A DNA stretch of 64,000 nucleotides, taken from NCBI GenBank assembly GCA_016841205.1, contig JAENZP010000005.1, positions 1-64,000 of the forward strand, given 5' to 3'. A program made the position numbers and the translations under genes. The notes beneath the pieces are model-generated. The model had not been told where the DNA came from. It searched no databases and saw nothing but the letters and a program-made list of their open reading frames with translations. Shown here in pieces: positions 9,819 to 22,214 of this stretch (position 1 is its first letter; the number at the start of each line of letters is the position of its first letter). The DNA is from Desulfoscipio geothermicus. GTDB taxonomy: Bacteria; Bacillota; Desulfotomaculia; Desulfotomaculales; Desulfallaceae.

Positions 9819-10988
9819 CTATAGCTGAATTCTCTTCATCTGCTCAACTTTAGATTTTGTTAAGTAGGAAATGGTACTGAGATTCCGTCTAATGTTGGAC
9901 CGTCTGTACACCACCGTACGAATACCGCGAATTATCCAGCATAAGGGCAGCAGAAAAGGCAGTTTTTGCAGAAATGGAAAAATGATGGTCATATGCCGCT
10001 TATCAGGGAAGAGAATTCTCAATGTGTATTTCACCTTGGCTGCGGTAAAGCTGTCACGGTCCTTCTTTCCTTGGATGAACTTGTTCAACGAAGCATTTTG
10101 GTTTGTACCATAGGTTCCGTTGGCCAGCATAAAATCAGTCATTTCATGATACAATTCATCACTAACTTCCGGATTGAACCAGCTCTCCGCCAAGGCCTTC
10201 ATACTTTGGGCAAAGTTATGTAATCCCGCTTTCTCAAGCTCTGTGTTAATATAATTCCAATTCAGTTGATCTTTATAATGCTGATTATATACCCATACAT
10301 CCATCACCGAACGTATGCCGGTGCCTCCGCCCCGGTAGTGCTTGGCCATGTGGGCCAACAGATAAATATAGAAATCATCATTGGACATTTCATAACTGTA
10401 TCTGCTCCCGGCTTGTAATCTCGCCCGGTCCCAGCTATTATCGAAATAGGTACCTGTTCTTTCGGGAATAAGCGCCCGGTGAAGTTCAATATTCATTACC
10501 GGCTGTTTGTGATATATATCGTGGTGACTGCCCGTATGTTCTGTGATATAGCCGAGCGATAGCATAATATCTCCGGCTTTTTTCATTTGTTTATGATTAA
10601 CTAAAATATCCACATCAGCCATCAATCGCATATCGGGCTGCGGGTAGAGATGCTTTATGATAAATCCCTTGAGTGGCATACACTTTATATGGTGTTCTTC
10701 CAGGGCGGACAGGATCTGCCGGGTCTCAATTTCTTGCCTTGCTTCCCTGGCAAGCGCCTTATGGCGGGCATCCTGAAAAGCCTTCATTTTATCCGGGGCC
10801 GGCAAAGGCTGCAGCCGGCTCAGTCCGTAGCAGGCCATGTTGGCAACGCTGTGCCGGGCAGCCATTTTGTAGAGGAAATCCAGATCAAGATCCGGCAGTA
10901 TTGGCGGCGGGACTTCGCCGTGCAGTACCGCCGCCAGAAGTGCGATTAAATAGCTGCCGGTTATTTGTTTATCCTGTTTTTCATTCAT
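9819..10988 (-). CDS. Nucleotidyltransferase family protein (PF14907-like) of RiPP-like locus
   Basis: 389 residues from ATG at 10988; this ATG overlaps the ABC exporter's stop (ATGAATGA) and has AGAGG upstream, so translation is coupled. A longer frame to 11027 is less likely. The core KCMPLKGFIIKHLYP...DMRLMADVDILV holds the DxD pair (MADVDI, about residue 124) of the uncharacterised nucleotidyltransferase family PF14907. Members often sit in exopolysaccharide and RiPP (including lasso-peptide) clusters and are thought to transfer a nucleotide or phosphate to an unknown acceptor. Being last after HprK-like, PqqD, peptidase and exporter genes suggests a tailoring role. Substrate unknown. Confidence 0.8.
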   Translation of the reverse strand: MNEKQDKQITGSYLIALLAAVLHGEVPPPILPDLDLDFLYKMAARHSVANMACYGLSRLQPLPAPDKMKAFQDARHKALAREARQEIETRQILSALEEHHIKCMPLKGFIIKHLYPQPDMRLMADVDILVNHKQMKKAGDIMLSLGYITEHTGSHHDIYHKQPVMNIELHRALIPERTGTYFDNSWDRARLQAGSRYSYEMSNDDFYIYLLAHMAKHYRGGGTGIRSVMDVWVYNQHYKDQLNWNYINTELEKAGLHNFAQSMKALAESWFNPEVSDELYHEMTDFMLANGTYGTNQNASLNKFIQGKKDRDSFTAAKVKYTLRILFPDKRHMTIIFPFLQKLPFLLPLCWIIRGIRTVVYRRSNIRRNLSTISYLTKSKVEQMKRIQL

Positions 10989-12663
10989 CCTGCTTAACCT
11001 CTCTTGTCCGGATACGCTTATTTTCAATGCATAGTACCTTATTACAGATATTTAAGGGCGCCTGACGATGGGATATAATCAGGCAGGTTTTGCCTTGCAT
11101 GGCACGTAAATTGTGCAGCAGCCTTATTTCGGTGTTTTCATCGAGAGCGGAACTGGCTTCATCCAGGAGAAGGATGGGCGCGCCGCTCAAAACGGCCCTG
11201 GCAATTGCCAGGCGTTGGACCTGCCCCTCAGACAAGCCGTGACCTTTTTCGCCGATCAGGGTATCGAGCCCGTCCGGCAGCTGCTTAATAAAATCATCGG
11301 CACAGCTTATTCGCGCTGCCTCCATGATCTCGCTATCACCGGCCCTTGGTCTGATGAAGGCAATATTTTCACGGATAGAGCCGGATAACAAAAGGTTTCC
11401 CTGCGGCACAAAGGCAAACAGTTTTCGGGTGTATTGATCGGTATTAATCCGGCTGCCATCGTTCATTTGCAAATAGATTTCACCTGCATCCGGTTTAAAC
11501 ACACCCAGCAGCAGTTTTAAAACGGTTGTTTTGCCGGTGCCGGATGGACCCGTGAGCAACACAAATTCCCCCTTGTTTATGTGCAGGACGGCATTCTCCA
11601 AAATCGTATCCCGGTCATAGCGAAAGCTAATATTCTCGAATACTAACGATGTCATTCTAATCCCCAGTTCGCTGCAATTCATCCCCGTACTGTTTACTTC
11701 GGATTCTTCAGGTAGATTCTCCAGTTCCATGATTCTTTCAACTGAAGCCAATAATCCGTAATATTTGGGTAGTAAGCCCGACAATCCTACAAACGGAGTC
11801 TGCACCTGGCCCACCAGTTGCAATACGGCGGTGAGGGTGCCGAAGCTGATGGCATGCAGGTACAGTTTGTAGGCGCTCCATACCAGGGCATACAAATAGC
11901 CCATTTGAAATATAAAACTGAAGCCGCTGTTGGCAAAAATGCTGGTTTTCATACGCTTCATCCTGGCTTGATAATTCAGGTCTTGTAGATTTGTCGCTTG
12001 TTTTGTAACCTTGCTTTCCACACTGAAAATTTTTATAACAAGTAGACTTTCAAGGATCTCCTGCATAAAAGAACGCAGTTTGCCATCTGTTTCCAGTACC
12101 CTTTTATGCATTTGTTTCATAACGCCGCGAAAAGCGCTGATCACAATGAAAAGCGAAATTCCACCCCCGGCAAAAACCATGGCAAAGCTGCCATCCAATG
12201 CTACCAGTACGGTAAAGGCGCAAAGCAACCGGGTCAGCATGGATACCAGGTTGGGTACAATGGTGGTTAGGCTTTCACTGATTATGGTCACATCCCTGGT
12301 GAGGTGGTTGAGCAGTTCGCCGCTGTGATATTTGCCAACGGCAACGTAGTCCTTGCGAAGAAGATTGGCGAAGAGCCGGCTTTTATAGCTTATCTCCAGG
12401 CGGGCTTTGATAATTTCTTCGAGATTGCGGCTGAGCAGACGCAATAACAATTGCAGGAAGATCACCCCGAGCAGCAGGAATGCAAAATAAATGAAAGTCT
12501 GCTTGTCACCCGCTACCGCGCCATCAATCACGTCGCGGGAAATCAGGGCGAATCCAACCCCACACCCGGCAAAAGCGGCGTTGGCGAGCACTAAAAGGGC
12601 TAAGCGGGGTAGCTGGGGCTTGGTATTCTGGTATAGCCATGAATGTATTTGCTTATCTTGCAT
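10981..12663 (-). CDS. ABC exporter, fused permease/ATPase
   Basis: 560 residues. The N-terminal six-helix exporter domain spans about 15-310, and the nucleotide-binding domain about 335-560. Walker A is GPSGTGKT (about 372-379), the signature LSEGQVQRLAIARA (about 474), Walker B ILLLDEASSALD (about 495) and the H-loop LIISHR. It should work as a homodimer exporting a peptide, lipid or drug; there is no N-terminal C39 peptidase, so any leader removal would need the separate S24/S26 peptidase encoded just upstream. Its start overlaps the peptidase gene by 11 bp and its stop overlaps the nucleotidyltransferase start. Confidence 0.92.
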   Translation of the reverse strand: MQDKQIHSWLYQNTKPQLPRLALLVLANAAFAGCGVGFALISRDVIDGAVAGDKQTFIYFAFLLLGVIFLQLLLRLLSRNLEEIIKARLEISYKSRLFANLLRKDYVAVGKYHSGELLNHLTRDVTIISESLTTIVPNLVSMLTRLLCAFTVLVALDGSFAMVFAGGGISLFIVISAFRGVMKQMHKRVLETDGKLRSFMQEILESLLVIKIFSVESKVTKQATNLQDLNYQARMKRMKTSIFANSGFSFIFQMGYLYALVWSAYKLYLHAISFGTLTAVLQLVGQVQTPFVGLSGLLPKYYGLLASVERIMELENLPEESEVNSTGMNCSELGIRMTSLVFENISFRYDRDTILENAVLHINKGEFVLLTGPSGTGKTTVLKLLLGVFKPDAGEIYLQMNDGSRINTDQYTRKLFAFVPQGNLLLSGSIRENIAFIRPRAGDSEIMEAARISCADDFIKQLPDGLDTLIGEKGHGLSEGQVQRLAIARAVLSGAPILLLDEASSALDENTEIRLLHNLRAMQGKTCLIISHRQAPLNICNKVLCIENKRIRTREVKQDE

Positions 12664-13123
12664 AAATCTTATTCCTTGCCCTGCAGACCAGGTTTTGGAG
12701 CCTGAGGAAGAGCTGTCTTGCCGGAAGCAACCTGGTCCAGATCCTGCAATACAACCAATAGGCCCTGCTGGCGCTGCAGTCTATGTATTTACCCCCACGG
12801 TAAAAAGCTTTGACTACGGCTATAATCTGATCGTGCTTGACTCCGTATTCCAATTGTCCTTGATGGTCGCCGCACAGTATATAGCTATCCTTTTTAACAG
12901 CCACAACCCGGTGCAGTACAAATTTTCCGTTTTCTCGCCGGTAAAGAGGGATATCGTATTTTTTTAGTTTCTGAGGGGCCTGCACCAGTATAATCTTATC
13001 CTTCCGGCTGCGCAGCATGGGGAGCATGCTGTTGCCCGCCGGCGCAAAGGCTACTTCGCCGCCGCCCTGCAGGGTCGCCTCCATCAGTGGGTACACATCT
13101 CTCAGGAAGATTCGCTCAGGCAA
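12653..13123 (-). CDS. S24/S26-type serine peptidase
   Basis: 156 residues. The signal-peptidase box GNSMLPML has the candidate nucleophile Ser32. The second box, LYRRENGKFVLHRVV, has His71 where SipW/eukaryotic-type S26B enzymes carry the catalytic His, and ILCGDHQG follows at about 82-89. There is no clear N-terminal membrane anchor, unlike ordinary signal peptidases, so a cytoplasmic or peripherally bound enzyme is likely. In this locus it is a candidate for cutting the precursor's leader, or an inactive relative. It overlaps pqqD by 8 bp and the ABC gene by 11 bp. Confidence 0.82.
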   Translation of the reverse strand: MPERIFLRDVYPLMEATLQGGGEVAFAPAGNSMLPMLRSRKDKIILVQAPQKLKKYDIPLYRRENGKFVLHRVVAVKKDSYILCGDHQGQLEYGVKHDQIIAVVKAFYRGGKYIDCSASRAYWLYCRIWTRLLPARQLFLRLQNLVCRARNKIYAR

Positions 13124-13379
13124 GTAAATCCGCGCCTTTCAACTTTTCAATAAATTCTGCGATATCTGTTTTAGCTGTTGCTTCATTAATTTCATATTCA
13201 CTCAGTATAGCTGTTAGTAATTCTTCTTCAGCGGCTCCTTGAACAAGCATTTTCCAGAGAAAAACGCCTGTACTGTTCAGGGTGATGAGCCCGTTGAAAT
13301 CCAAAGCGGCCTTGCCAACCGCAACTACTATGCTGTTTCCCGCTACTTTCCGAAGCATATATCCATCTTTAATTTTCAC
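13116..13379 (-). CDS. PqqD family protein (RiPP recognition element-like)
   Basis: 87 residues from GTG at 13379, which follows GGAGAGGGTG; the reading frame is open further but overlaps the HprK-like gene without a site. The sequence has the PqqD fold pattern: an N-terminal beta pair (GYMLRKVAGNSIVVAVG), the LITLNSTGVFLWKML segment, then helices ending in ...IAEFIEKLKGADLL. PqqD-type domains bind the leaders of ribosomally made peptides and present them to modifying enzymes. Its position after a YxKP-type small peptide and before a peptidase and exporter supports leader binding here. Confidence 0.88.
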   Translation of the reverse strand: MKIKDGYMLRKVAGNSIVVAVGKAALDFNGLITLNSTGVFLWKMLVQGAAEEELLTAILSEYEINEATAKTDIAEFIEKLKGADLLA

Positions 13380-13413
13380 TTCTTTCACCCTCTCCGGCAA
13401 AAATATGAATTTC

Positions 13414-14121
13414 TCAGCCTGAGGACATCGCCCGGCAGGCCATTTCCACTGCTTCGAAACTGATAGTGCAGCCCATTTTATATACCGGGATCTGCCTGAT
13501 GAGCTTATCAAGTATTATGAGCAGGTTGTCCATCGGCTGTATCTCATAAGGACGTAAAGTTTGGTTAAGAATTAGTTTGAGGACTGCTTGAGTTTCTAAT
13601 TTTTCTATCCAACTATATGCAGATTGTTCCAAAAAGCAAATGGCCTGCAGGGGAACTTTTATATTTAAATTATACTCGCTCTTGCCGCTCCACGGGGTTC
13701 CATATACATAGAAAGAATTGTCTATGCAGCGGAGAGCCGGTTTATCATCATTAATGATGCGGACCTTATCGGTTCCAAAGCGCTGCTGCCATAACCTGGC
13801 GTGGGTGGATTTGCCGGTTCCGCAGGGGGCGGCGAAGAGATAGGCTCGTCCTTTATAAGCCAGGGCCGAGGCATGCAGCATTAAGCCGTCAAAATCCAAT
13901 AATTGTCGGTAGAAATCAGCGCCGGTCCAGATATATTCGCACTCGTCCAGACTCAAATGAGGATTTTCCTGCTGCTTTTGCCGCAGGAAATCCTCACTTA
14001 AGGCGATAGTGAAATCAACCGGACGGGTTGAGTCTGATAAATAGGGTGGACTTTGTTTGGCAAGGATTTTACCGTTGGCCTGCAAGGTCACTGTTAAATC
14101 GGCTATCTTATATGTCTGCAT
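13414..14121 (-). CDS. HPr kinase-like protein
   Basis: 235 residues. The central P-loop is APCGTGKS (98-105), followed by IINDDKPAL (123-131), which matches the Walker B/acidic pair of HprK-like kinases; GTPWSGKSEYN (about 141-151) is the region after it. The regulatory N-terminal domain and HPr-binding features of true HprK are missing. Relatives occur in RiPP loci, including a lasso-peptide kinase that phosphorylates a C-terminal serine (paeninodin), and in the ScmC class. Here it follows a 44-residue precursor-like gene by 30 bp, so a peptide kinase is the main hypothesis. Activity is not proven by sequence. Confidence 0.82.
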   Translation of the reverse strand: MQTYKIADLTVTLQANGKILAKQSPPYLSDSTRPVDFTIALSEDFLRQKQQENPHLSLDECEYIWTGADFYRQLLDFDGLMLHASALAYKGRAYLFAAPCGTGKSTHARLWQQRFGTDKVRIINDDKPALRCIDNSFYVYGTPWSGKSEYNLNIKVPLQAICFLEQSAYSWIEKLETQAVLKLILNQTLRPYEIQPMDNLLIILDKLIRQIPVYKMGCTISFEAVEMACRAMSSG

Positions 14122-14151
14122 TCTTCTCTCCCAGGCCCCCTAAACGGACAA

Positions 14152-14286
14152 TTACTTAACTATTTCGCCCCAGCCGAGTTCATCCCCGGTACCGTCGCCG
14201 CCATTAATCAATCCACTTGAGGTAATGATATCTTCGATTTCAAATATTTCGATTTCGATCACCGGTTTTTCATATATCTTTTTCAT
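14152..14286 (-). CDS. 44-residue RiPP precursor-like peptide
   Basis: ATG at 14286 follows a GGGGGG site about eight bases upstream; the stop is at 14152. The peptide opens MKKIYEKPVIEIEIF, giving the YxxPxI leader motif known to be read by PqqD-type recognition domains in lasso and related peptides. EIEDIITSSG follows, then a Gly/Asp-rich tail with GGDGTGDELGWGE. Residue count is 44. It lies 20 bp after the fibronectin-III gene and 30 bp before the HprK-like gene, both on the same strand. No asparagine-synthetase-like cyclase is present, so a classical lasso peptide is not supported; the final product is unknown. Confidence 0.75.
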   Translation of the reverse strand: MKKIYEKPVIEIEIFEIEDIITSSGLINGGDGTGDELGWGEIVK

Positions 14287-14306
14287 AAACTTCGCCCCCC
14301 TTTTTA

Positions 14307-17300
14307 TTATTTAAGACCATTCACAGTGATGGTCCTAACCGTGGTGTAGGTTGTTTCTGTGCCTTTCGTTACAAAGGCCCGCACATAGAGAGGCGTGTCC
14401 GCCTGACTCGCAGGAATACCCGTTACGGTACAGGCAATGATATAAGTCCCTCCTAATTCCCTAGCCGTAACGGTTAACTCCGCTGCTGTTACAGACTCGT
14501 ACACGGTCGTTGTTGATTTCACCTGCAAAGGAACATTCTCTTTAGTTGGGTTCGGTTCAGATTTTGAGAAAACAAACCCAACTGCATCTGCATCCAGAGT
14601 GTCAATGGTCGCCAGAAAACGGATATCATAGGTGTCTGCATTTGTTCTTAATTGTGCCCCGCGATAGGTCACCAAACAGCATACGACTGGTTCGGAAGCA
14701 TCCGAGGCCGGGCCTGTGCCCTCACTGTTCATCGCCGTTACCGTAAAGGTGTACTCTGTTCCGTTGGTCAGTCCGGTAATAACATGGCTTAAACTTGTGC
14801 TGCCGGCATTACTGTCTGTTCCGTCAGCGGGATTTGAGGTTACCATGTATCCCGTAATCGCACTGCCGCCGTCGGATGCCGGTGCACTAAAGCTTACGGT
14901 GACCTGTTTGTCTCCTCCCGTTACCGTGCTAATGGTAGGCTTTCCGGGAACCCCCACAGGAGTTACTGCTGCAGAAGCATCTGAGGTTGCGCTTGTGCCC
15001 ATACTGTTCGTCGCCGTCACCGTAAAGGTGTAAGCTGTTCCGTTGATCAGTCCGGTTATAACGTGGCTTAAACTTGTGCTCCCGGCATCACTGTCTGTTC
15101 CGTCAGCGGGATATGAGGTTACCGTGTATCCCGTAATCGTACTGCCACCGTCGGATGCCGGTGCGCTAAAGCTTACGGTGGCCTGCCCATCTCCTGCCGT
15201 TGCAGTACCAATGGTTGGCGCTCCGGGAACTGTGGCGGGAGTTACCGCTGCGGAAGCGTCCGAGGCCAGGCCTGTACCCACACTATTCGTCGCCGTCACC
15301 GTAAAGGTGTAAGCTGTTCCGTTAGTCAGTCCGGTAATAACATGGCTTAAACTGGTGCTCCCGGCATTGCTGTCTGTTCCGCCACCGGGATTTGAAGTTA
15401 CCGTGTATCCCGTAATCGCGCTGCCGCCGTCGGATGCCGGCTTGCTAAAGCTTACAGTGGCCTGCGTATTCCCTGCAACTGCTGTTATATCGGTAGGTGC
15501 CGACGGTATTCCCTTTTGTGTCCGTCCACCTTCAGGCCTAAGTGAGGTAGTGATCGAGATAAATATACTATTGCCAATTGTGGTTAATTTGCCAATGTCC
15601 ACTGTAACTGAGGTTTGCCCTGCTTGAACAGTTGCATTGAAAAGTGACACTCCCCCCGTTTGCGCAGCATAAATATTCACAGTATCACCTGCAGTACGTC
15701 CGCTTACTGTTACAATGTCATTTGTATCAACAGGATTCAAATTAAGCGTAATATCACTCGCATAAGGAGCTGGCGTCCGTAGAACCGGATATGCGTTATT
15801 TTCATTAATATACCATACAGTACTGAAATCCCAATTGACACTGTTAAAAGTGGCTTGTTTCTTTAAGTCAGCGTCAGAAGTTGGAGCAGCCCCGCTGTCT
15901 GATGCCGAAGAGCCAATTCCGTTGGTTGCCGCGGTAGAAAGGAAGTAATTATCTGTTATGGTATTTCCCGAATAGCTAAATCCTATAATACCACCTTTAG
16001 TAGCTGCGTCACCCGTAAGGGTTCCTGCGAAATAGCAGGTCTGGGTTGAAGAATTGCTAGAGTATCCAGTAATTCCACCCATTGATGAAGATGATGAATG
16101 CCCTGTAATTGTTGCTGTGCTGTAACAATTTCTTATAGTGCCATTTTGATTTGAACCCAAGATTCCACCCAACGATGAATTTCCAGCACTCTCAATAAAA
16201 CTGCTTCCGACCAAATTACAGCTTTCAATAGTCCCGCTGTTCAATCCGGCTATACCGCCTACCTGACATACGGCAGTATCATTCGTGCATTTTATATTAG
16301 CGTTTGTTAATGTTAAGTATTTAACGGCACCCGGACTTGATACGTCCCCAAAAAGTCCTACGCTTGTTAAATTACTGCTTATGGTCAGATTCGATATATT
16401 TCGTCCGCATCCATCATATGTTCCAGTAAAGCTATCGACAGTACTACCAACCGGAGTTAGCACAACCCCGATCATATCAATATCAGCAATCTGCTTAAAA
16501 TATTTGTCTTTTACAGTGACAATATTGGCAGACATCCATACCAGGTCATATGGACCATCGACAATATAGGGATCTGCCAATGTGCCGGCGCCAGCCGGAG
16601 CTTCCGCTTTAAGCGGCGTAGAACATACTTCATTTGAATAAGAGCTGTCTTCAATTCCGCTGGCTTTAACCACAAAGTAATACGGGGTATTGTTGCTCAG
16701 TCCGGTTACTGTATAGCTTGTGGCAGTCTTGTTTGTACCTGAGTCTACTTCAATGTATCCTGATCCTGTAGCCGTGCTTTTATATACTTTGTAGCCGGTT
16801 GCTCCTATTACGCTATCCCAGCTTAAACTTACCTGACCGTCCCCTGACGTCGCACTCAGATTGGTTGGCGCTGACGGTACTGAAGACATAGCGCTTACTT
16901 CACTTGAATAAGGGCTTTCTCCGCCGCTAGTGGTGACTGTAACTACAAAGTAATACCAGGTACTGTTGCTCAGCCCGGTTACTGTATAACTTGTAGCGGT
17001 CTTGGCCGTACCCGGGTCTACTTCGCTATATCCCGTTCCTGTTGTCGTGCTTTTATATACCTTGTAGCTGGTTGCTCCCGCCACGCTATCCCAGGTTAAA
17101 CTTACCTGACCGTTTCCTTCCGTTGCCGTCAGATTATCAGGGGCCGACGGTACCGTGGATTGCGGTGTGGCGCTTGCTTCATTTGAATAAGCGCTTTCTC
17201 CTGAAGCAGCAGTGATGGCTTTAACCACAAAGTAATAAGTGGTCCCATTATTTAGTCCGGTTACCGTATAGCTTGCAGCGGTCTTCGCCGTACCTGAGTC

Positions 17301-18077
17301 TACTTCGCTATATCCTGATCCTGATGCCGTGCTTATATATACTTTATAGCCGGTCGCTCCTGTTACACTGTTCCAGCTTAAACTTACCTGCCCGCTGCCC
17401 GCCGTTGCCGTAAGATTTGTGGGAGTTGTCGAGTATATGCTGATATCATCAATATACATGCTAAAGCCATAATCAGCATAGGCGAACAAACCCACCTTTA
17501 CATTTTGTCCGCCATAATCAGCTGAAGACAAACTAATTGTATACTTGGTCCAGCCAGTCGTTCCATTAACACGTTTTATTTCCGTACCAGCATTAGACCA
17601 AGTAGTGCCCCCGTCTTGCGAAATCTGGGGTTGAATACTATCTGCTGCACCATCTGAACCATTCATATCCGGATAATGAAACATCCAGAAACTATATTCA
17701 CAGAATCCTGTGGACGGAAAACTAAAGCTATCGGTAGTATACAGCCGGTCACTATCACCTTTCTCGGCAGCGAACACATCTGCTTTCGCCATCCATGTAC
17801 TCTCATGGGGTGAAACTTGTGTAACCAAAGTAGCAAACGTGTCATCAGCGCCCTTCCGCGACCACTGTACACCAGAAGTTGTTGTGGTGCTCCAATTATT
17901 CGGGAGAGCCGCTGATACTCCACTCGTGTTCGCCGTTTCGAAATCCTCCGTTATTGGCAACGTTAGTGCATATGCCTTGCTTGATCCAAAGCACGTGATG
18001 CAAAACATTATCGTTACCAACATAACCAATTTTGCTTTCTCTTTTATAATTTCAAATAAATTAATAACCCCCAACAA
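14307..18077 (-). CDS. Large secreted fibronectin type III/GLUG repeat protein
   Basis: 1256 residues. A signal peptide covers about 1-38. Residues 40-215 form a MAM/choice-of-anchor-like beta domain (LPITEDFETANTSG...MYIDDISIYS). Three fibronectin III modules follow (about 217-490), then a region with GLUG-like repeats (about 496-766, VGGIAGLNSGTIESCN and similar), a linker, three more fibronectin III modules (about 857-1133) and a C-terminal beta domain (1134-1256). The last three modules are encoded by near-identical DNA with a 279-bp period. There is no LPXTG, S-layer-homology or choline-binding anchor, so it is released or held by another factor. Likely adhesion or matrix role. Confidence 0.85.
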   Translation of the reverse strand: MLGVINLFEIIKEKAKLVMLVTIMFCITCFGSSKAYALTLPITEDFETANTSGVSAALPNNWSTTTTSGVQWSRKGADDTFATLVTQVSPHESTWMAKADVFAAEKGDSDRLYTTDSFSFPSTGFCEYSFWMFHYPDMNGSDGAADSIQPQISQDGGTTWSNAGTEIKRVNGTTGWTKYTISLSSADYGGQNVKVGLFAYADYGFSMYIDDISIYSTTPTNLTATAGSGQVSLSWNSVTGATGYKVYISTASGSGYSEVDSGTAKTAASYTVTGLNNGTTYYFVVKAITAASGESAYSNEASATPQSTVPSAPDNLTATEGNGQVSLTWDSVAGATSYKVYKSTTTGTGYSEVDPGTAKTATSYTVTGLSNSTWYYFVVTVTTSGGESPYSSEVSAMSSVPSAPTNLSATSGDGQVSLSWDSVIGATGYKVYKSTATGSGYIEVDSGTNKTATSYTVTGLSNNTPYYFVVKASGIEDSSYSNEVCSTPLKAEAPAGAGTLADPYIVDGPYDLVWMSANIVTVKDKYFKQIADIDMIGVVLTPVGSTVDSFTGTYDGCGRNISNLTISSNLTSVGLFGDVSSPGAVKYLTLTNANIKCTNDTAVCQVGGIAGLNSGTIESCNLVGSSFIESAGNSSLGGILGSNQNGTIRNCYSTATITGHSSSSSMGGITGYSSNSSTQTCYFAGTLTGDAATKGGIIGFSYSGNTITDNYFLSTAATNGIGSSASDSGAAPTSDADLKKQATFNSVNWDFSTVWYINENNAYPVLRTPAPYASDITLNLNPVDTNDIVTVSGRTAGDTVNIYAAQTGGVSLFNATVQAGQTSVTVDIGKLTTIGNSIFISITTSLRPEGGRTQKGIPSAPTDITAVAGNTQATVSFSKPASDGGSAITGYTVTSNPGGGTDSNAGSTSLSHVITGLTNGTAYTFTVTATNSVGTGLASDASAAVTPATVPGAPTIGTATAGDGQATVSFSAPASDGGSTITGYTVTSYPADGTDSDAGSTSLSHVITGLINGTAYTFTVTATNSMGTSATSDASAAVTPVGVPGKPTISTVTGGDKQVTVSFSAPASDGGSAITGYMVTSNPADGTDSNAGSTSLSHVITGLTNGTEYTFTVTAMNSEGTGPASDASEPVVCCLVTYRGAQLRTNADTYDIRFLATIDTLDADAVGFVFSKSEPNPTKENVPLQVKSTTTVYESVTAAELTVTARELGGTYIIACTVTGIPASQADTPLYVRAFVTKGTETTYTTVRTITVNGLK
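14700..15540 (-). repeat. Tandem 279-bp fibronectin III repeats
   Basis: Three near-identical units can be registered on a GTAAAGGTGTA motif at about 14742, 15021 and 15300, giving a period of 279 bp (93 codons). High DNA identity indicates recent duplication or gene conversion. A second, less uniform set with a period near 280 bp covers about 16620-17420. Confidence 0.8.
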
Positions 18078-18267: not shown

Positions 18268-19317
18268 TTATTGGGCTGCCCTGGTTATAGTGATTTCGTA
18301 TTTCTTGAAATCTGACCCTATGGCCGCATTGCAGATTACGGTAACCAGATTAGTTCCAACCTGCAGGTCGATAACCTGCGATGGTTGCCCGCTCTGGACT
18401 GCAACACCGTTCACCGTTATGCTTCCTCCATCCTCAGCTGTTGCCTGTATCTGAGCAGTTGTCTTGGTATTGGCCACAGAAGAAGTGTAAGCATAAGTAG
18501 CTCTGTTAAAGGCCGGCGTAAGACCCCCGCCCCTTATCCCGACAATTAACATCCCCGACAGATACGGGCTGCTGGCTCTTGTTACATTAACCGTATAGGT
18601 ATTTTCCTCTCCAATAACCGGATATACTTGCACCGGTATAGGATTATTCACACCAGGATTCAAATTGACCGGCGCCGATGGCTGCCCATTGGCGCAGACA
18701 ACACCGTTAACATTTATGGTTGCATTACTGTCCGCAGCCGTTGGCGTTATTGTGATACTGCTTAGATCATAACCTGCGTTTGAGGTGTACGTTTTTGTGG
18801 TCTGGCTAAATGCCGGATTAAGTACCAGCGAGTCGCTCAATACCAAATTGGAAAGATAAGAATCGGTAGAATCAGCGGCGTATATTTCCAAATCCGCGAT
18901 TGAGGCAAAATTCGTATTGCAACGCAGGCCCTTGGTCACATAAACTCTAACCCATCTGGTCTTTTGCGGGGAAACCGACCGATCAGTTTGATTGGCGGAA
19001 TTATTAACCACCGAATCCAAATCAAACCAGCTGGCATTGTCGAGGCTTCCCTGAAGCTTATAATCAATTAAATTATAATTTGGCGACCAGCCGATCATAC
19101 CCATTTGTTTGACCACCCAGCGGTTAACCCAATAATAAGCGCCTAGATCAACACTCAACCAAACAGGTGCGGGTGGCGACGACGAAGGCGGCAACGGCGA
19201 ACTGCCAAGCCACCGTCCCAGCGGAGATAAAGTACCGTCAACCGCCTTGGCCGGTGAATAAGGATACACGAAGCTGCTCGCATTGGCGAACTTGTTCCGG
19301 GCAATATTATCAGCCAT
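18268..19317 (-). CDS. F5/8 type C (discoidin) domain protein with cadherin-like beta-sandwich domains
   Basis: 349 residues. The N-terminal 1-150 is a discoidin/F5/8C carbohydrate-binding domain: NIARNKFANASSFV, SPAKAVDGTL, VWLSVDLGAYYWVNRWVV and KTRWVRVYVTKGL are the family blocks. Two cadherin-like beta-sandwich domains follow (about 152-245 and 250-349, each with YLSNLVLS- or YLSGMLIV-type starts and ending in TYTVNVTRA or KYEITITRA). No signal peptide is visible, unlike the fibronectin protein, so export would need another route, or it forms part of an assembled particle. It lies 71 bp downstream of two tail-collar genes. Confidence 0.85.
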   Translation of the reverse strand: MADNIARNKFANASSFVYPYSPAKAVDGTLSPLGRWLGSSPLPPSSSPPAPVWLSVDLGAYYWVNRWVVKQMGMIGWSPNYNLIDYKLQGSLDNASWFDLDSVVNNSANQTDRSVSPQKTRWVRVYVTKGLRCNTNFASIADLEIYAADSTDSYLSNLVLSDSLVLNPAFSQTTKTYTSNAGYDLSSITITPTAADSNATINVNGVVCANGQPSAPVNLNPGVNNPIPVQVYPVIGEENTYTVNVTRASSPYLSGMLIVGIRGGGLTPAFNRATYAYTSSVANTKTTAQIQATAEDGGSITVNGVAVQSGQPSQVIDLQVGTNLVTVICNAAIGSDFKKYEITITRAAQ

Positions 19318-19388: not shown

Positions 19389-19631
19389 TTAATCTCTGGT
19401 TGGATATATACCTGAAACGCAAATATAATACCCAGTGCCAGGCTGCGGTTCAGCGCCTTGTAAATTAGGTACAGCAAAAGTGGTAGTCCCGTTACCGCCG
19501 AATTTATTACCAATTAAGGAAAACAGCGCGGTGTTTTGTTGAACCTGAAGAATTTGGCCGTTGCAAAGCAACCAGCCCATGGGTACAAATGAATACGGAA
19601 AAACAACTATTTGTCCTAAGAAGTAATCCAT
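19389..19631 (-). CDS. Phage tail collar domain protein (microcystin-dependent-protein-like), copy 2
   Basis: 80 residues, a single minimal Collar domain: GQIVVFPYSFVPMGWLLCNG, then LQVQQNTALFSLIGNKFGG, NGTTTFAVPNLQ and a short tail ending YICVSGIYPTRD. The domain occurs in phage tail fibres and in bacterial MdpB-type proteins of unclear function. It is paired with the related gene at 19675-19923 and followed by the F5/8C protein, so the three may form a fibre or surface structure. AGGAGG lies before the ATG. Confidence 0.85.
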   Translation of the reverse strand: MDYFLGQIVVFPYSFVPMGWLLCNGQILQVQQNTALFSLIGNKFGGNGTTTFAVPNLQGAEPQPGTGYYICVSGIYPTRD

Positions 19632-19674
19632 AATTTCATCCTCCTAAAAATGAGTATTATAAATCAAGATAAAA

Positions 19675-19923
19675 TTAGCTCCTGCTGGGGTAAATCCCTT
19701 GAATCGCGATACAGTAGTGCATGCCCATCCCCTTCATCGGCAGCGCGTTTCGCAAATCCGGCAGGCAAAAAGTAGTGGTACCGTTTCCACCAAATTTTGT
19801 GCCTATCAACGTAAATAAGGATTGATTAGTGGCAATACTCAAGGTTTGTCCCTCGCAAGGCATCCAGTAAGACGGCGCAAAATCAAACGCAAACAACTGA
19901 ATATCACCCAGTAATGGATCCAT
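19675..19923 (-). CDS. Phage tail collar domain protein (microcystin-dependent-protein-like), copy 1
   Basis: 82 residues with the same block order as its neighbour: GDIQLFAFDFAPSYWMPCEG, QSLFTLIGTKFGG, NGTTTFCLPDLRNALPMKG, ending YCIAIQGIYPSRS. The two copies are diverged at the DNA level, so the duplication is old. No sheath, tube or baseplate genes are nearby, so this is not a prophage tail. An AGGAGG site precedes the ATG at 19923. Confidence 0.87.
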   Translation of the reverse strand: MDPLLGDIQLFAFDFAPSYWMPCEGQTLSIATNQSLFTLIGTKFGGNGTTTFCLPDLRNALPMKGMGMHYCIAIQGIYPSRS

Positions 19924-20342: not shown

Positions 20343-21788
20343 TTATGATTCTTTATTTAATCTAAGTTGGTTCTGATAAGCATCCCATATCATCCAATCG
20401 AATATTTGTTTTGCCTGATAGCAAATTCGATCATCTATTTTCCATATAGAGCTATGATTTACATAGGCTGCATATGGACAACCTCCTCCGCATATCGAAA
20501 TAGCATAGCAATCAATACAGTCTTTCATGTTTAATGGAAATCTTTGTCTCCATTCATTAAACAATTTGCTTTCATTATAAAGGTAATCTGAATTTAATTC
20601 TTCCAATTTTAAATGCATTTGATCTACTGAATATGGGAAAAACTCATCAACACCTAAAAAAGCCTGACATGGTCCAATTAATCCGGAGGGAGATATGACA
20701 ATTTGTCCTCCAACACCCATACAATCTTTAACATGAAAACCTTTTTCACTAAAAGGTCTTACTCTTCTCATGACACGATCTTCATATATCCCATGTCTAC
20801 GGAGCTTTTCAAATGCTATTATTAATTGTCTTGAAGCAAATGCATGGTCTGGAATCTCAACTGGATTACATGCGTTAATAGTTGGAAGAAGAATATTAAA
20901 ACCCATTCCGCGTGGTGCTAATTTTTCTATGATAAAATCTGTAATTTCTTCAATATGTTCTATATTAAATTTGTTTAATGTGCAAGAAACACCTACGTCA
21001 AGGCCAGCAGATTTTAATTTATTAAAACTATTAAGTACCCGCTCAAATGAACCTTTTCCAGCTATGTCTATACGACATGCATCATGATAAATCTGTGGTC
21101 CATCGATAGATACAGAAACATTACAATCTGTTTCTTTTAAAACCTTTATGGTCTCATCATCTATCAAAAGTCCATTAGTTATTAGTGTCATTTGTACAGG
21201 ACTTGAAAAAACTTTGTCCTTTTCCAATTTCCTTATATATTTCATTGTGGCGTATAATACTTCTTTATTCATTAATGGTTCGCCACCATAAAAAGTAATA
21301 GTAATTGGTTCTGCCTCTTGTGTAAGCTTTGCAAAAACATCAATACCTTTTTGAGCAGTTTCTAACGTCATATTTTCAAATTTTAAATTTCGGTTATCAT
21401 CTTCAACAAAACAATATTTACAACGAAGGTTACAATTGCTGGTAATTAAAAAGTACATATTTTGAATCTTATATTGAGAAATACCTATATTAAATTTTTT
21501 AATATAACTTTTTACATCAGCTTCATCTATATCGATAAGTAAACCTTTATGTATCATCTGGGGAATAATTTGCTTTAATGTCTCTAAATGAAATTCATTT
21601 TCTAGAGACTCAAAAACCATATTTATTGTTTTGTAATCATTGAAAGAGTCATATATTCTTTTCATGATTACATCACCATAAAGCATATTAGTAGTTAAAC
21701 TATGGCAAATGCAATAAACATTATTATTTTCAAAAAGCTTAGAAAATCTAGAGTTTTTATATTTTTTTTCAATATTTGAAATATCCAT
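20343..21788 (-). CDS. Radical SAM/SPASM peptide maturase
   Basis: 481 residues. Residues about 20-95 resemble an N-terminal leader-binding (PqqD/RRE-like) region. The radical SAM core starts at about 110 with CNLRCKYC (C119, C123, C126 bind the SAM cluster); FYGGEPLMNKE is the GGEP motif. The C-terminal SPASM domain has CMGVGGQIVISPSG...GPC and CIDCYAISICGGGCP, ligands for auxiliary Fe-S clusters. Such enzymes install thioether or carbon cross-links on Cys-rich peptides (sactipeptide/ranthipeptide type). It follows the Cys-rich 104-residue gene by 70 bp, with AGGAGGAAG seven bases before the ATG. No exporter or protease is adjacent. Confidence 0.93.
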   Translation of the reverse strand: MDISNIEKKYKNSRFSKLFENNNVYCICHSLTTNMLYGDVIMKRIYDSFNDYKTINMVFESLENEFHLETLKQIIPQMIHKGLLIDIDEADVKSYIKKFNIGISQYKIQNMYFLITSNCNLRCKYCFVEDDNRNLKFENMTLETAQKGIDVFAKLTQEAEPITITFYGGEPLMNKEVLYATMKYIRKLEKDKVFSSPVQMTLITNGLLIDDETIKVLKETDCNVSVSIDGPQIYHDACRIDIAGKGSFERVLNSFNKLKSAGLDVGVSCTLNKFNIEHIEEITDFIIEKLAPRGMGFNILLPTINACNPVEIPDHAFASRQLIIAFEKLRRHGIYEDRVMRRVRPFSEKGFHVKDCMGVGGQIVISPSGLIGPCQAFLGVDEFFPYSVDQMHLKLEELNSDYLYNESKLFNEWRQRFPLNMKDCIDCYAISICGGGCPYAAYVNHSSIWKIDDRICYQAKQIFDWMIWDAYQNQLRLNKES

Positions 21789-21822: not shown

Positions 21823-22214
21823 TCAAAAGGGCTTTTTTAAAAAAGTTTATAAATATTCTATCTGTTAGTTTTTAATGACTTTACAATTTCCGCCATATCT
21901 CCCAATTGAGTTTGAAGTTTATCTAGAATTTGATTTACATCAGAAGGACTTTCTGTTAAATCTTCAAGACTCGTGCAAGAACAATCACAGTAGCAAGCAC
22001 CGCAAGAATTGCATGAACAATTACATGCACATGCTCCGCAAGCACAGGTACTACAATCACAATAAGTAGCAATTGGACTACTTCCGATTTTACCAACAAT
22101 CTGTTTTAAAGCATTTAACTCTAATTCTCCAACAAAGGTACCCACTTTTTGGGGTATTTTTGAATCGGCCATTATATTTCCCCTTTCATATAGTGATTTT
22201 AAAAGCCCTTTTGA
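21823..22214. repeat. 14-nt inverted repeats flanking the Cys-rich precursor gene
   Basis: TCAAAAGGGCTTTT (21823-21836) and its exact reverse complement (22201-22214) lie in the precursor-maturase gap and in the 5' leader. They could pair in the mRNA around the precursor coding region. Confidence 0.55.
21858..22172 (-). CDS. Cys-rich RiPP precursor, substrate of the adjacent radical SAM enzyme
   Basis: 104 residues. Residues 1-36 are a leader-like region (KVGTFVGELELNALKQIVGK), 38-66 hold 13 cysteines in 29 residues (38,40,43,45,48,50,52,54,57,60,62,64,66) in CxC and CxxC spacing, interspersed with Ala, Ser, Asn, Asp and Gly. Residues 70-104 form a predicted helix (DVNQILDKLQTQLGDMAEIV). The core is therefore in the middle, with a long C-terminal tail, unlike precursors that end with the core. 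GAAAGGGG lies before the ATG. Gene order (precursor then SPASM enzyme) supports ranthipeptide-like maturation; the product and target are unknown. Confidence 0.85.
   Translation of the reverse strand: MADSKIPQKVGTFVGELELNALKQIVGKIGSSPIATYCDCSTCACGACACNCSCNSCGACYCDCSCTSLEDLTESPSDVNQILDKLQTQLGDMAEIVKSLKTNR

Follow-up and report, generated by a model that had tools for sequence, protein, structure and literature searches.

A small YxKP peptide gene paired with a surface-protein gene at a candidate peptide-maturation locus of Desulfoscipio geothermicus

Organization of the locus

We describe a gene set in a 64,000-nucleotide stretch of Desulfoscipio geothermicus DNA, referred to here as the window (assembly GCA_016841205.1, contig JAENZP010000005.1, positions 1-64,000 of the forward strand). 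At positions 9819-18077 the minus strand encodes, in order of transcription, a large surface protein, a 44-residue peptide with a YxKP motif, an HprK-like protein, a PqqD-type protein, an S26-like peptidase, an ATP-binding cassette (ABC) exporter and a PF14907 nucleotidyltransferase-like protein (Table 1). An earlier note on this DNA had listed the five enzyme and transport genes together with the peptide gene as one compact cluster; these genes are real, all lie on the minus strand, and the coordinates agree with its placement of the peptide gene 30 bp upstream of the HprK-like gene. Its gene set is nevertheless incomplete, as it missed the 1256-residue protein with fn3 stretches that is encoded 20 bp before the peptide. 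The overlaps of 8-11 bp that it reported are found between the PqqD and S26 genes (8 bp), the S26 and ABC genes (11 bp) and the ABC and nucleotidyltransferase genes (8 bp), whereas the HprK and PqqD genes do not overlap and are separated by 34 bp; here the PqqD start was set at a GTG codon from relatives, as the listed open reading frame (ORF) start at 13511 was judged too long. The ATG codon of the peptide gene is preceded by the sequence AAAAAGGGGGGCGAAGTTT. A scan for promoters and terminators gave matches at about the level of shuffled sequences (22 against 20.3, and 13 against 11.6).

Table 1. Features of the window, with coordinates on the forward strand. Rows below the nucleotidyltransferase-like protein are neighboring genes.
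Feature	Position	Strand	Details
fn3/GLUG surface protein, secreted, large	14307-18077	-	1256 aa; TTG start; six fn3 stretches (Pfam)
Surface-protein C-terminal domain	14310-14684	-	subtype ...IIACTVTGIP...LYVRAFVTKG...
YxKP peptide	14152-14286	-	44 aa; ATG start; leader MKKIYEKPVIEIEIFEIEDIITSS (residues 1-24, predicted boundary) and variable tail GLINGGDGTGDELGWGEIVK
HprK/PEPCK-fold kinase-like protein	13414-14121	-	235 aa; P-loop APCGTGKST; NDDKP motif
PqqD-type RiPP recognition element	13116-13379	-	87 aa; GTG start
S26/S24-like peptidase	12653-13123	-	156 aa; TTG start; Ser32 and His71 invariant among relatives
ABC exporter	10981-12663	-	membrane and ATPase domains; family match
PF14907 nucleotidyltransferase-like protein	9819-10988	-	389 aa; ATG start; K107, G108, R121, D125 and D127 invariant among relatives
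Discoidin-like protein, after the tail-collar-like ORFs	18268-19317	-	349 aa; label by reading; no NCBIfam match
Two small ORFs like phage tail-collar domains	~19390-19923	-	label by reading
Radical SAM/SPASM maturase	20343-21788	-	best match FibroRumin profile (E 2e-72), below cut-off
Cys-rich precursor-like protein	21858-22172	-	104 aa (CDCSTCACGACACNCSCNSCGACYCDCSC); no NCBIfam match

The peptide family and its co-occurrence with the kinase

The window peptide belongs to a family of 85 distinct members of 29-70 residues, in which a conserved leader is followed by a variable tail. The family was reduced from 96 called peptides by removing second starts of one ORF, calls shorter than 25 residues, calls without a Y/F-P motif and identical tails. 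Across its members the leader reads MKKxYxxPx[IV]E[IV]xxFxxED[IV][IL][TAC]xS, with K3 kept in 78/80, Y5 in 81/84, P8 in 84/85, E18 in 65/80 and D19 in 64/80 of the sequences. The 44-mer is thus conserved as a family, contrary to the outcome on which the earlier note would have given up its reading. Judged by its sequence, with a conserved leader and a variable predicted core, the peptide is a precursor of the kind found in ribosomally synthesized and post-translationally modified peptide (RiPP) systems. At the end of the leader, 58 of 78 peptides have small residues at both position 22 and position 24, as compared to 17% of such pairs in the tails (the remaining 7 of the 85 peptides fall outside the pattern and were excluded from these counts); this small-x-small signature looks like a signal-peptidase site and would fit the S26-like enzyme. 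The tails comprise 5-44 residues rich in Gly, Asp, Glu, Ser, Thr and Asn, and only 2/85 peptides contain a Cys beyond residue 26. The tail type of the window peptide, GxGDExGWGxI, recurs at four other loci (L016, L019, L022 and L122).

In the window's class, a profile built from 15 peptides (A1) identified 14 peptides in 9 of 113 genomes. The 8 peptide genomes of the class that bear the kinase hold 14 kinase loci, and at 13 of them a YxKP peptide stands upstream of the kinase; the 14th (G104:C72, or L032) begins at a contig edge. In a phylum sample of 398 genomes the same profile matched two, namely the window's own genome and G374, in which the kinase adjoins the peptide. Co-occurrence was then counted in 291 genomes of the class of G374 (presumably Clostridia) at cut-offs of E 1e-4 for the peptide and E 1e-10 for the kinase. 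The peptide is present in 24 of these genomes and the kinase in 85, and all 24 peptide genomes are kinase-positive (P 1e-14). The association persists when the centre G374 and the query-row genome G622 are set aside (22/22 in 83 of 289, P 1e-13), and when genomes are counted by genus (18/18 in 58 of 180, P 2e-10). It is not produced by linkage, because only 8 of the 24 genomes have a peptide and a kinase match no more than 2 kb apart, and in the other 16 no listed peptide is that near. From the kinase side, 80 of 89 HprK relatives were kept as loci and 48 of the 80 were used in a peptide search, which found the peptide in 22 of the 48 genomes (E 1e-3). Some genomes carry many copies, with 14 peptides against 2 kinase matches in G746, 9 against 2 in G559 and 7 against 1 in G589.

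The chance that the small ORF is spurious or a bystander is negligible. It would agree with the window peptide having no significant NCBIfam or Pfam match and with 15 family members giving only chance-level NCBIfam matches, but on computational grounds it is ruled out by the conservation of the leader and by the 24/24 co-occurrence with the kinase.

The surface-protein partner

Peptide genes are most regularly found directly behind the gene of a large protein. Of the 85 peptides, 83 had at least 600 bp of upstream sequence and were counted (2 had less), and 77 of these lie behind an ORF of at least 150 residues that is on the same strand and ends at -60 to 400 bp, with a median gap of 20 bp; in 66 of the 83 the upstream ORF ends at -10 to 60 bp. 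When loci that contributed A1 query rows are excluded, 64 of 68 peptides have such an ORF, in 54 cases at -10 to 60 bp. In G746, where 12 of the 14 peptide loci were fetched, 11 peptides lie directly behind such an ORF, and the 12th locus is cut by a contig end. Upstream ORFs that are complete look secreted more often than other ORFs (20/32 versus 49/242, P 2e-6) by a crude hydrophobicity rule, with 46 upstream ORFs that are cut by the fetched stretch excluded from the count. The N-terminus of the window's surface protein reads as a signal peptide, yet this rule misses it. The surface protein and the small YxxP peptide are encoded as a pair. The earlier note had described a compact cluster with a single exported peptide as its product; the main regularity is instead the position of the peptide gene behind that of a secreted surface protein, an arrangement that some genomes repeat many times.

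This regularity bears on two other explanations. In the first, the peptide is a freely secreted RiPP, such as a bacteriocin or a signal, with a tail that undergoes modification, cleavage and export; the gene of the surface protein would then be a mere co-expressed neighbor. The leader, recognition element, kinase, peptidase and exporter are the usual parts of RiPP export, and a variable tail behind a conserved leader would be expected as well; however, the surface-protein linkage at 77/83 peptides argues against it, as do 20 stretches around peptides in multi-copy genomes (L192-L211), where no match to any of the five enzyme profiles adjoins the peptide, and three loci (L016, L019 and L025) that have no ABC gene. 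We consider this explanation unlikely. In the second, the peptide is not secreted and serves as an intracellular cofactor that is bound and phosphorylated and controls export, folding or expression of the surface protein. The tight position behind the surface-protein gene fits such a role, classical HprK acts on a regulatory phosphoprotein, and the S26-like protein has no obvious membrane segment by reading. The variable tails behind a signal-peptidase-like site, together with an exporter gene in many loci, instead suggest a released product, and we regard the cofactor explanation as equally unlikely.

Many partner proteins in the window's class have in common a C-terminal domain that reaches to within a few residues of the stop codon. 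Searched with this domain, the 113 class genomes yielded 11 matches, of which 10 immediately precede a peptide; since all 10 are the query's own loci, the specificity of the domain is weaker than it appears. The one new match, in G006, lies 6 kb from a peptide. The window's subtype of the domain accompanies GxGDExGWGxI tails in the window and at L016, L019 and L122, and it also occurs in Candidatus Formimonas (L141), where the tail is different. A single homologous C-terminal domain in all partners is not supported, as the two subtypes fail profile alignment, and alignment A3 mixes both. A model of the L030 subtype, which is not that of the window (predicted local distance difference test score, pLDDT, 88), superimposes at best with VIA Z 9.0 and a root-mean-square deviation (rmsd) of 2.2 over 85 residues, and its best Foldseek match has E 6e-3. 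No special function can be read from the model because it resembles only common Ig/fn3 folds.

Further proteins are encoded between the peptide and the kinase at several loci. By reading, these are an SLH protein (L015, L023, L028, L030, L120 and G808), a dockerin-like protein (L145, L148 and L149) or a lipoprotein (L124). The SLH proteins beside the peptide at six loci (L015, L023, L028, L030, L120 and L214) have a common tail, e.g. SADIVDY or DSADIVDY, that resembles peptide tails. Across these six loci the likeness is reached by 0/2000 shuffles, and pairing each SLH tail with the peptide of its own locus is weakly better than other pairings (27/720 permutations reach it). This is suggestive of a relationship between SLH anchor tails and peptide tails.

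The locus enzymes

The NCBIfam matches of the locus enzymes described here all fall below curated cut-offs. For the kinase-like protein the nearest named profile is ScmC, a weak match (E 3e-9), and no Pfam family matches at E 0.01. Its AlphaFold model (pLDDT 95) has the HprK/PEPCK fold, with a Foldseek match to HprK/P at E 1e-5 and a superposition on PEPCK at VIA Z 13.6 and an rmsd of 3.5 over 212 residues; residues G101, G103, K104 and D126 are invariant in 35 sequences. According to the model, the HprK-like protein is thus a protein of the HprK/PEPCK kinase fold with a P-loop, and kinase activity is predicted. The PqqD-type protein matches PF05402 (E 2e-14), and its nearest solved relative is the lasso RiPP recognition element (RRE) TbiB1 (E 1.1e-5); by its sequence it is an RRE-type leader-binding domain, and it is predicted to bind the peptide. 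Profile matches of the S26-like peptidase are weak (TIGR02228, E 1e-4; Pfam S24, E 0.04). Ser32 and His71, invariant in 18 sequences, correspond to a catalytic serine and general base, which we take to be the Ser-His pair of SipW-type enzymes. The ABC exporter has a family match at E 6e-27, and no C39 peptidase is found among the best 25 of its 34 Pfam matches. The nucleotidyltransferase-like protein matches PF14907 at E 2e-59 and keeps D125 and D127 over 12 sequences. The locus enzymes are predicted to be active. Searches of PDB sequences with the kinase, the nucleotidyltransferase and the C-terminal domain returned nothing useful.

An S26 relative is present in 30 of 33 peptide genomes (only peptide genomes were counted); in 26 of these 30 its coordinates place it no more than about 4 kb from the kinase. 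Two S26 matches, G639 C33 and G804 C105, are located inside open frames of 521 and 530 residues, which suggests fusion to another domain. L022, the third copy in G006, looks degenerate, with its kinase split over two frames and a C-terminal domain fragment further downstream. At L021 (10315-11807, minus strand) of the relative G013, a radical SAM enzyme (ScmE, E 4e-31, below cut-off) is encoded between PqqD and a Cys-containing YxKP peptide, and this locus would be a variant with other chemistry.

Proposed pathway

We propose that the locus is one instance of a RiPP-like system that matures the companion peptides of surface proteins, and our confidence in this scheme as a whole is evenly divided. 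The YxxP leader would dock on the stand-alone PqqD recognition element, as the presence of both suggests, and the HprK/PEPCK-fold enzyme would phosphorylate a hydroxyl of the bound peptide by analogy with the lasso enzymes PadeK and PsmK. Where it is present, the PF14907 protein may add a sugar or a nucleotide to the peptide, as PsmN would lead one to expect. The S26-like Ser-His peptidase would then cleave after [T/A/C]-x-S, the small-x-small signature, and free a tail of 5-44 residues that would exit through the ABC exporter or another route. In the weakest step of the scheme, the tail would act at the surface in concert with the partner protein, whose C-terminal domain may be its target. 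Gene counts in the multi-copy genomes suggest that one enzyme set may serve many pairs per genome. The RiPP-like system envisaged by the earlier note is supported in part: it keeps its leader peptide, PqqD partner, kinase and peptidase, while its single, freely secreted product is weakened.

Several observations weigh against the proposed scheme. At the cut-offs used, 61 of the 85 kinase-positive genomes have no detectable peptide, and these kinase-only genomes may stem from lost sensitivity, from other substrates or from both. In Candidatus Formimonas, which carries the closest HprK relative (78% kinase identity), the peptide is ~0.3 Mb from the kinase. The expectation that a small YxKP peptide goes with the gene set therefore holds from the side of the peptide genomes and fails from the side of the kinase. 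G108 is the only genome of the window's class with a peptide and no kinase, and nucleotidyltransferase remnants are found beside its peptide. Among the partners, 6/83 peptides lack an upstream ORF of at least 150 residues, 4/14 class peptides have no recognized C-terminal domain protein in front, and the two subtypes of this domain are not shown to be homologous (hhalign probability 0.5%); moreover, neighboring genes can be linked for expression only. The complete enzyme set is not universal, because PqqD is nearby in 67, S26 in 31 and the nucleotidyltransferase in 11 of the 80 HprK loci (some of them cut by contig ends), and the same three loci noted above lack the ABC gene. Finally, 10/78 tails contain no Ser or Thr, and a C-terminal Ser, the residue that marks substrates of lasso kinases of the PadeK type, is found in 0/85 peptides.

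A bolder form of the proposal, which is tentative and on balance improbable, is a surface-assembly system. Each client surface protein would have a dedicated C-terminal Ig-like domain and its own peptide, a shared PqqD-kinase-S26 machine would (glyco-)phosphorylate and cut the peptides, and the tail would be joined to or inserted in the C-terminal domain or an anchor (SLH, dockerin-like or lipoprotein). This would be a role like that of a sortase or exosortase, except that the link would be a modified peptide of separate origin. Diffusible natural products are the usual output expected of RiPP enzymes, and a tail that is a structural link of surface proteins would be categorically new. The toolkit of RRE, kinase and nucleotidyltransferase is here tied to surface proteins in anaerobes, among them Ruminococcus and other Clostridia, with up to 14 copies per genome. 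If correct, the proposal would assign a function to many unannotated ORFs of 29-70 residues and a role to orphan HprK-PqqD pairs, and it would offer a testable route to how such bacteria build their surface.

Relation to known systems

The closest parallels are the lasso peptide systems of Firmicutes with phosphorylation or phosphoglycosylation, paeninodin (PadeK) and pseudomycoidin (PsmK/PsmN). They share with the present locus a stand-alone PqqD-type RRE (B1), an HprK-like kinase, a nucleotidyltransferase-like protein and an ABC exporter, and presumably also the YxxP leader; PsmN we take to be a PF14907 protein. In contrast to those systems, the present locus has no lasso cyclase and no B2 protein, contains an S26-like peptidase instead, encodes peptides without a C-terminal Ser, and has a surface-protein partner gene and, in some genomes, many peptides. 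As reviewed, lasso kinases of this kind phosphorylate their precursors at a C-terminal Ser, and PsmN adds a hexose to phosphorylated pseudomycoidin, although its true reaction is in doubt (PMC8498205, PMC9266682). No other site is proven for lasso kinases.

A decayed or split lasso cluster, with its cyclase and B2 peptidase elsewhere or lost, is very unlikely. It would account for a PqqD protein that is nearest to lasso RREs and for a kinase and nucleotidyltransferase known as lasso tailoring enzymes. The GGxGTGDExGWG tail could in principle close a ring between its N-terminus and Asp/Glu, and by reading the GGxGTGDE tails could offer an N-terminal ring residue and Asp/Glu at positions 7-9; most other tails are unlikely to do so and are unlike lasso cores. 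Of the 33 peptide genomes, a single one has PF13471 (B2) over its cut-off, and there away from the peptide loci; the window's own genome has none. That genome has one PF00733 match in a 614-residue frame, AsnB-like by length, and one partial match, neither at the locus, and no PF00733 match occurs at the peptide loci of the 10 genomes searched (the other 23 peptide genomes were outside this search). Membership in the lasso class was rejected on these two grounds, namely no cyclase (PF00733, 10 genomes) and no B2 peptidase (PF13471, 33 genomes) at the locus. The gene set at 9819-18077 contains neither an asparagine-synthetase-like cyclase nor a radical SAM enzyme, as the earlier note had observed for its smaller set. 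Genome G039 has three PF13471 places (C1 1671538, 2508796 and 3472390), two of them beside PF00733 and all apart from its three YxKP loci; these probably represent genuine lasso clusters within this genome. Beside the peptide of L193 and L160, the opposite strand carries a gene that by reading resembles an asparagine synthase (N-terminus MCGI).

The SynChlorMet cassette (ScmA-F) is also related in part. The kinase is nearest ScmC and the PqqD protein weakly matches ScmD (E 0.008), both far below curated cut-offs; unlike the cassette, the proteins of 9819-18077 include no ScmE/ScmF radical SAM enzyme, although the relative L021 has an ScmE-like one. In exosortase/PEP-CTERM and sortase sorting, one central enzyme set handles many surface proteins that share a feature. 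Here the shared feature would be a predicted Ig/fn3-like domain together with a peptide encoded by a gene of its own, whereas by reading there is neither an LPXTG motif nor a C-terminal membrane helix. MAM of Faecalibacterium resembles the proposed product in being a leader-bearing product held at the cell envelope; it differs in its double-glycine leader and C39 exporter (PCAT export), and the text of the report mentions no PqqD (PMC12184118). Among the matches listed from open-licence PMC literature, with subscription journals outside the search, there is no description of the present gene set.

Other genes in the window

Upstream of the surface-protein gene, beyond the discoidin-like and tail-collar-like genes (Table 1), the window holds a second RiPP-like pair, in which the Cys-rich 104-residue protein is encoded directly upstream of the radical SAM/SPASM maturase.

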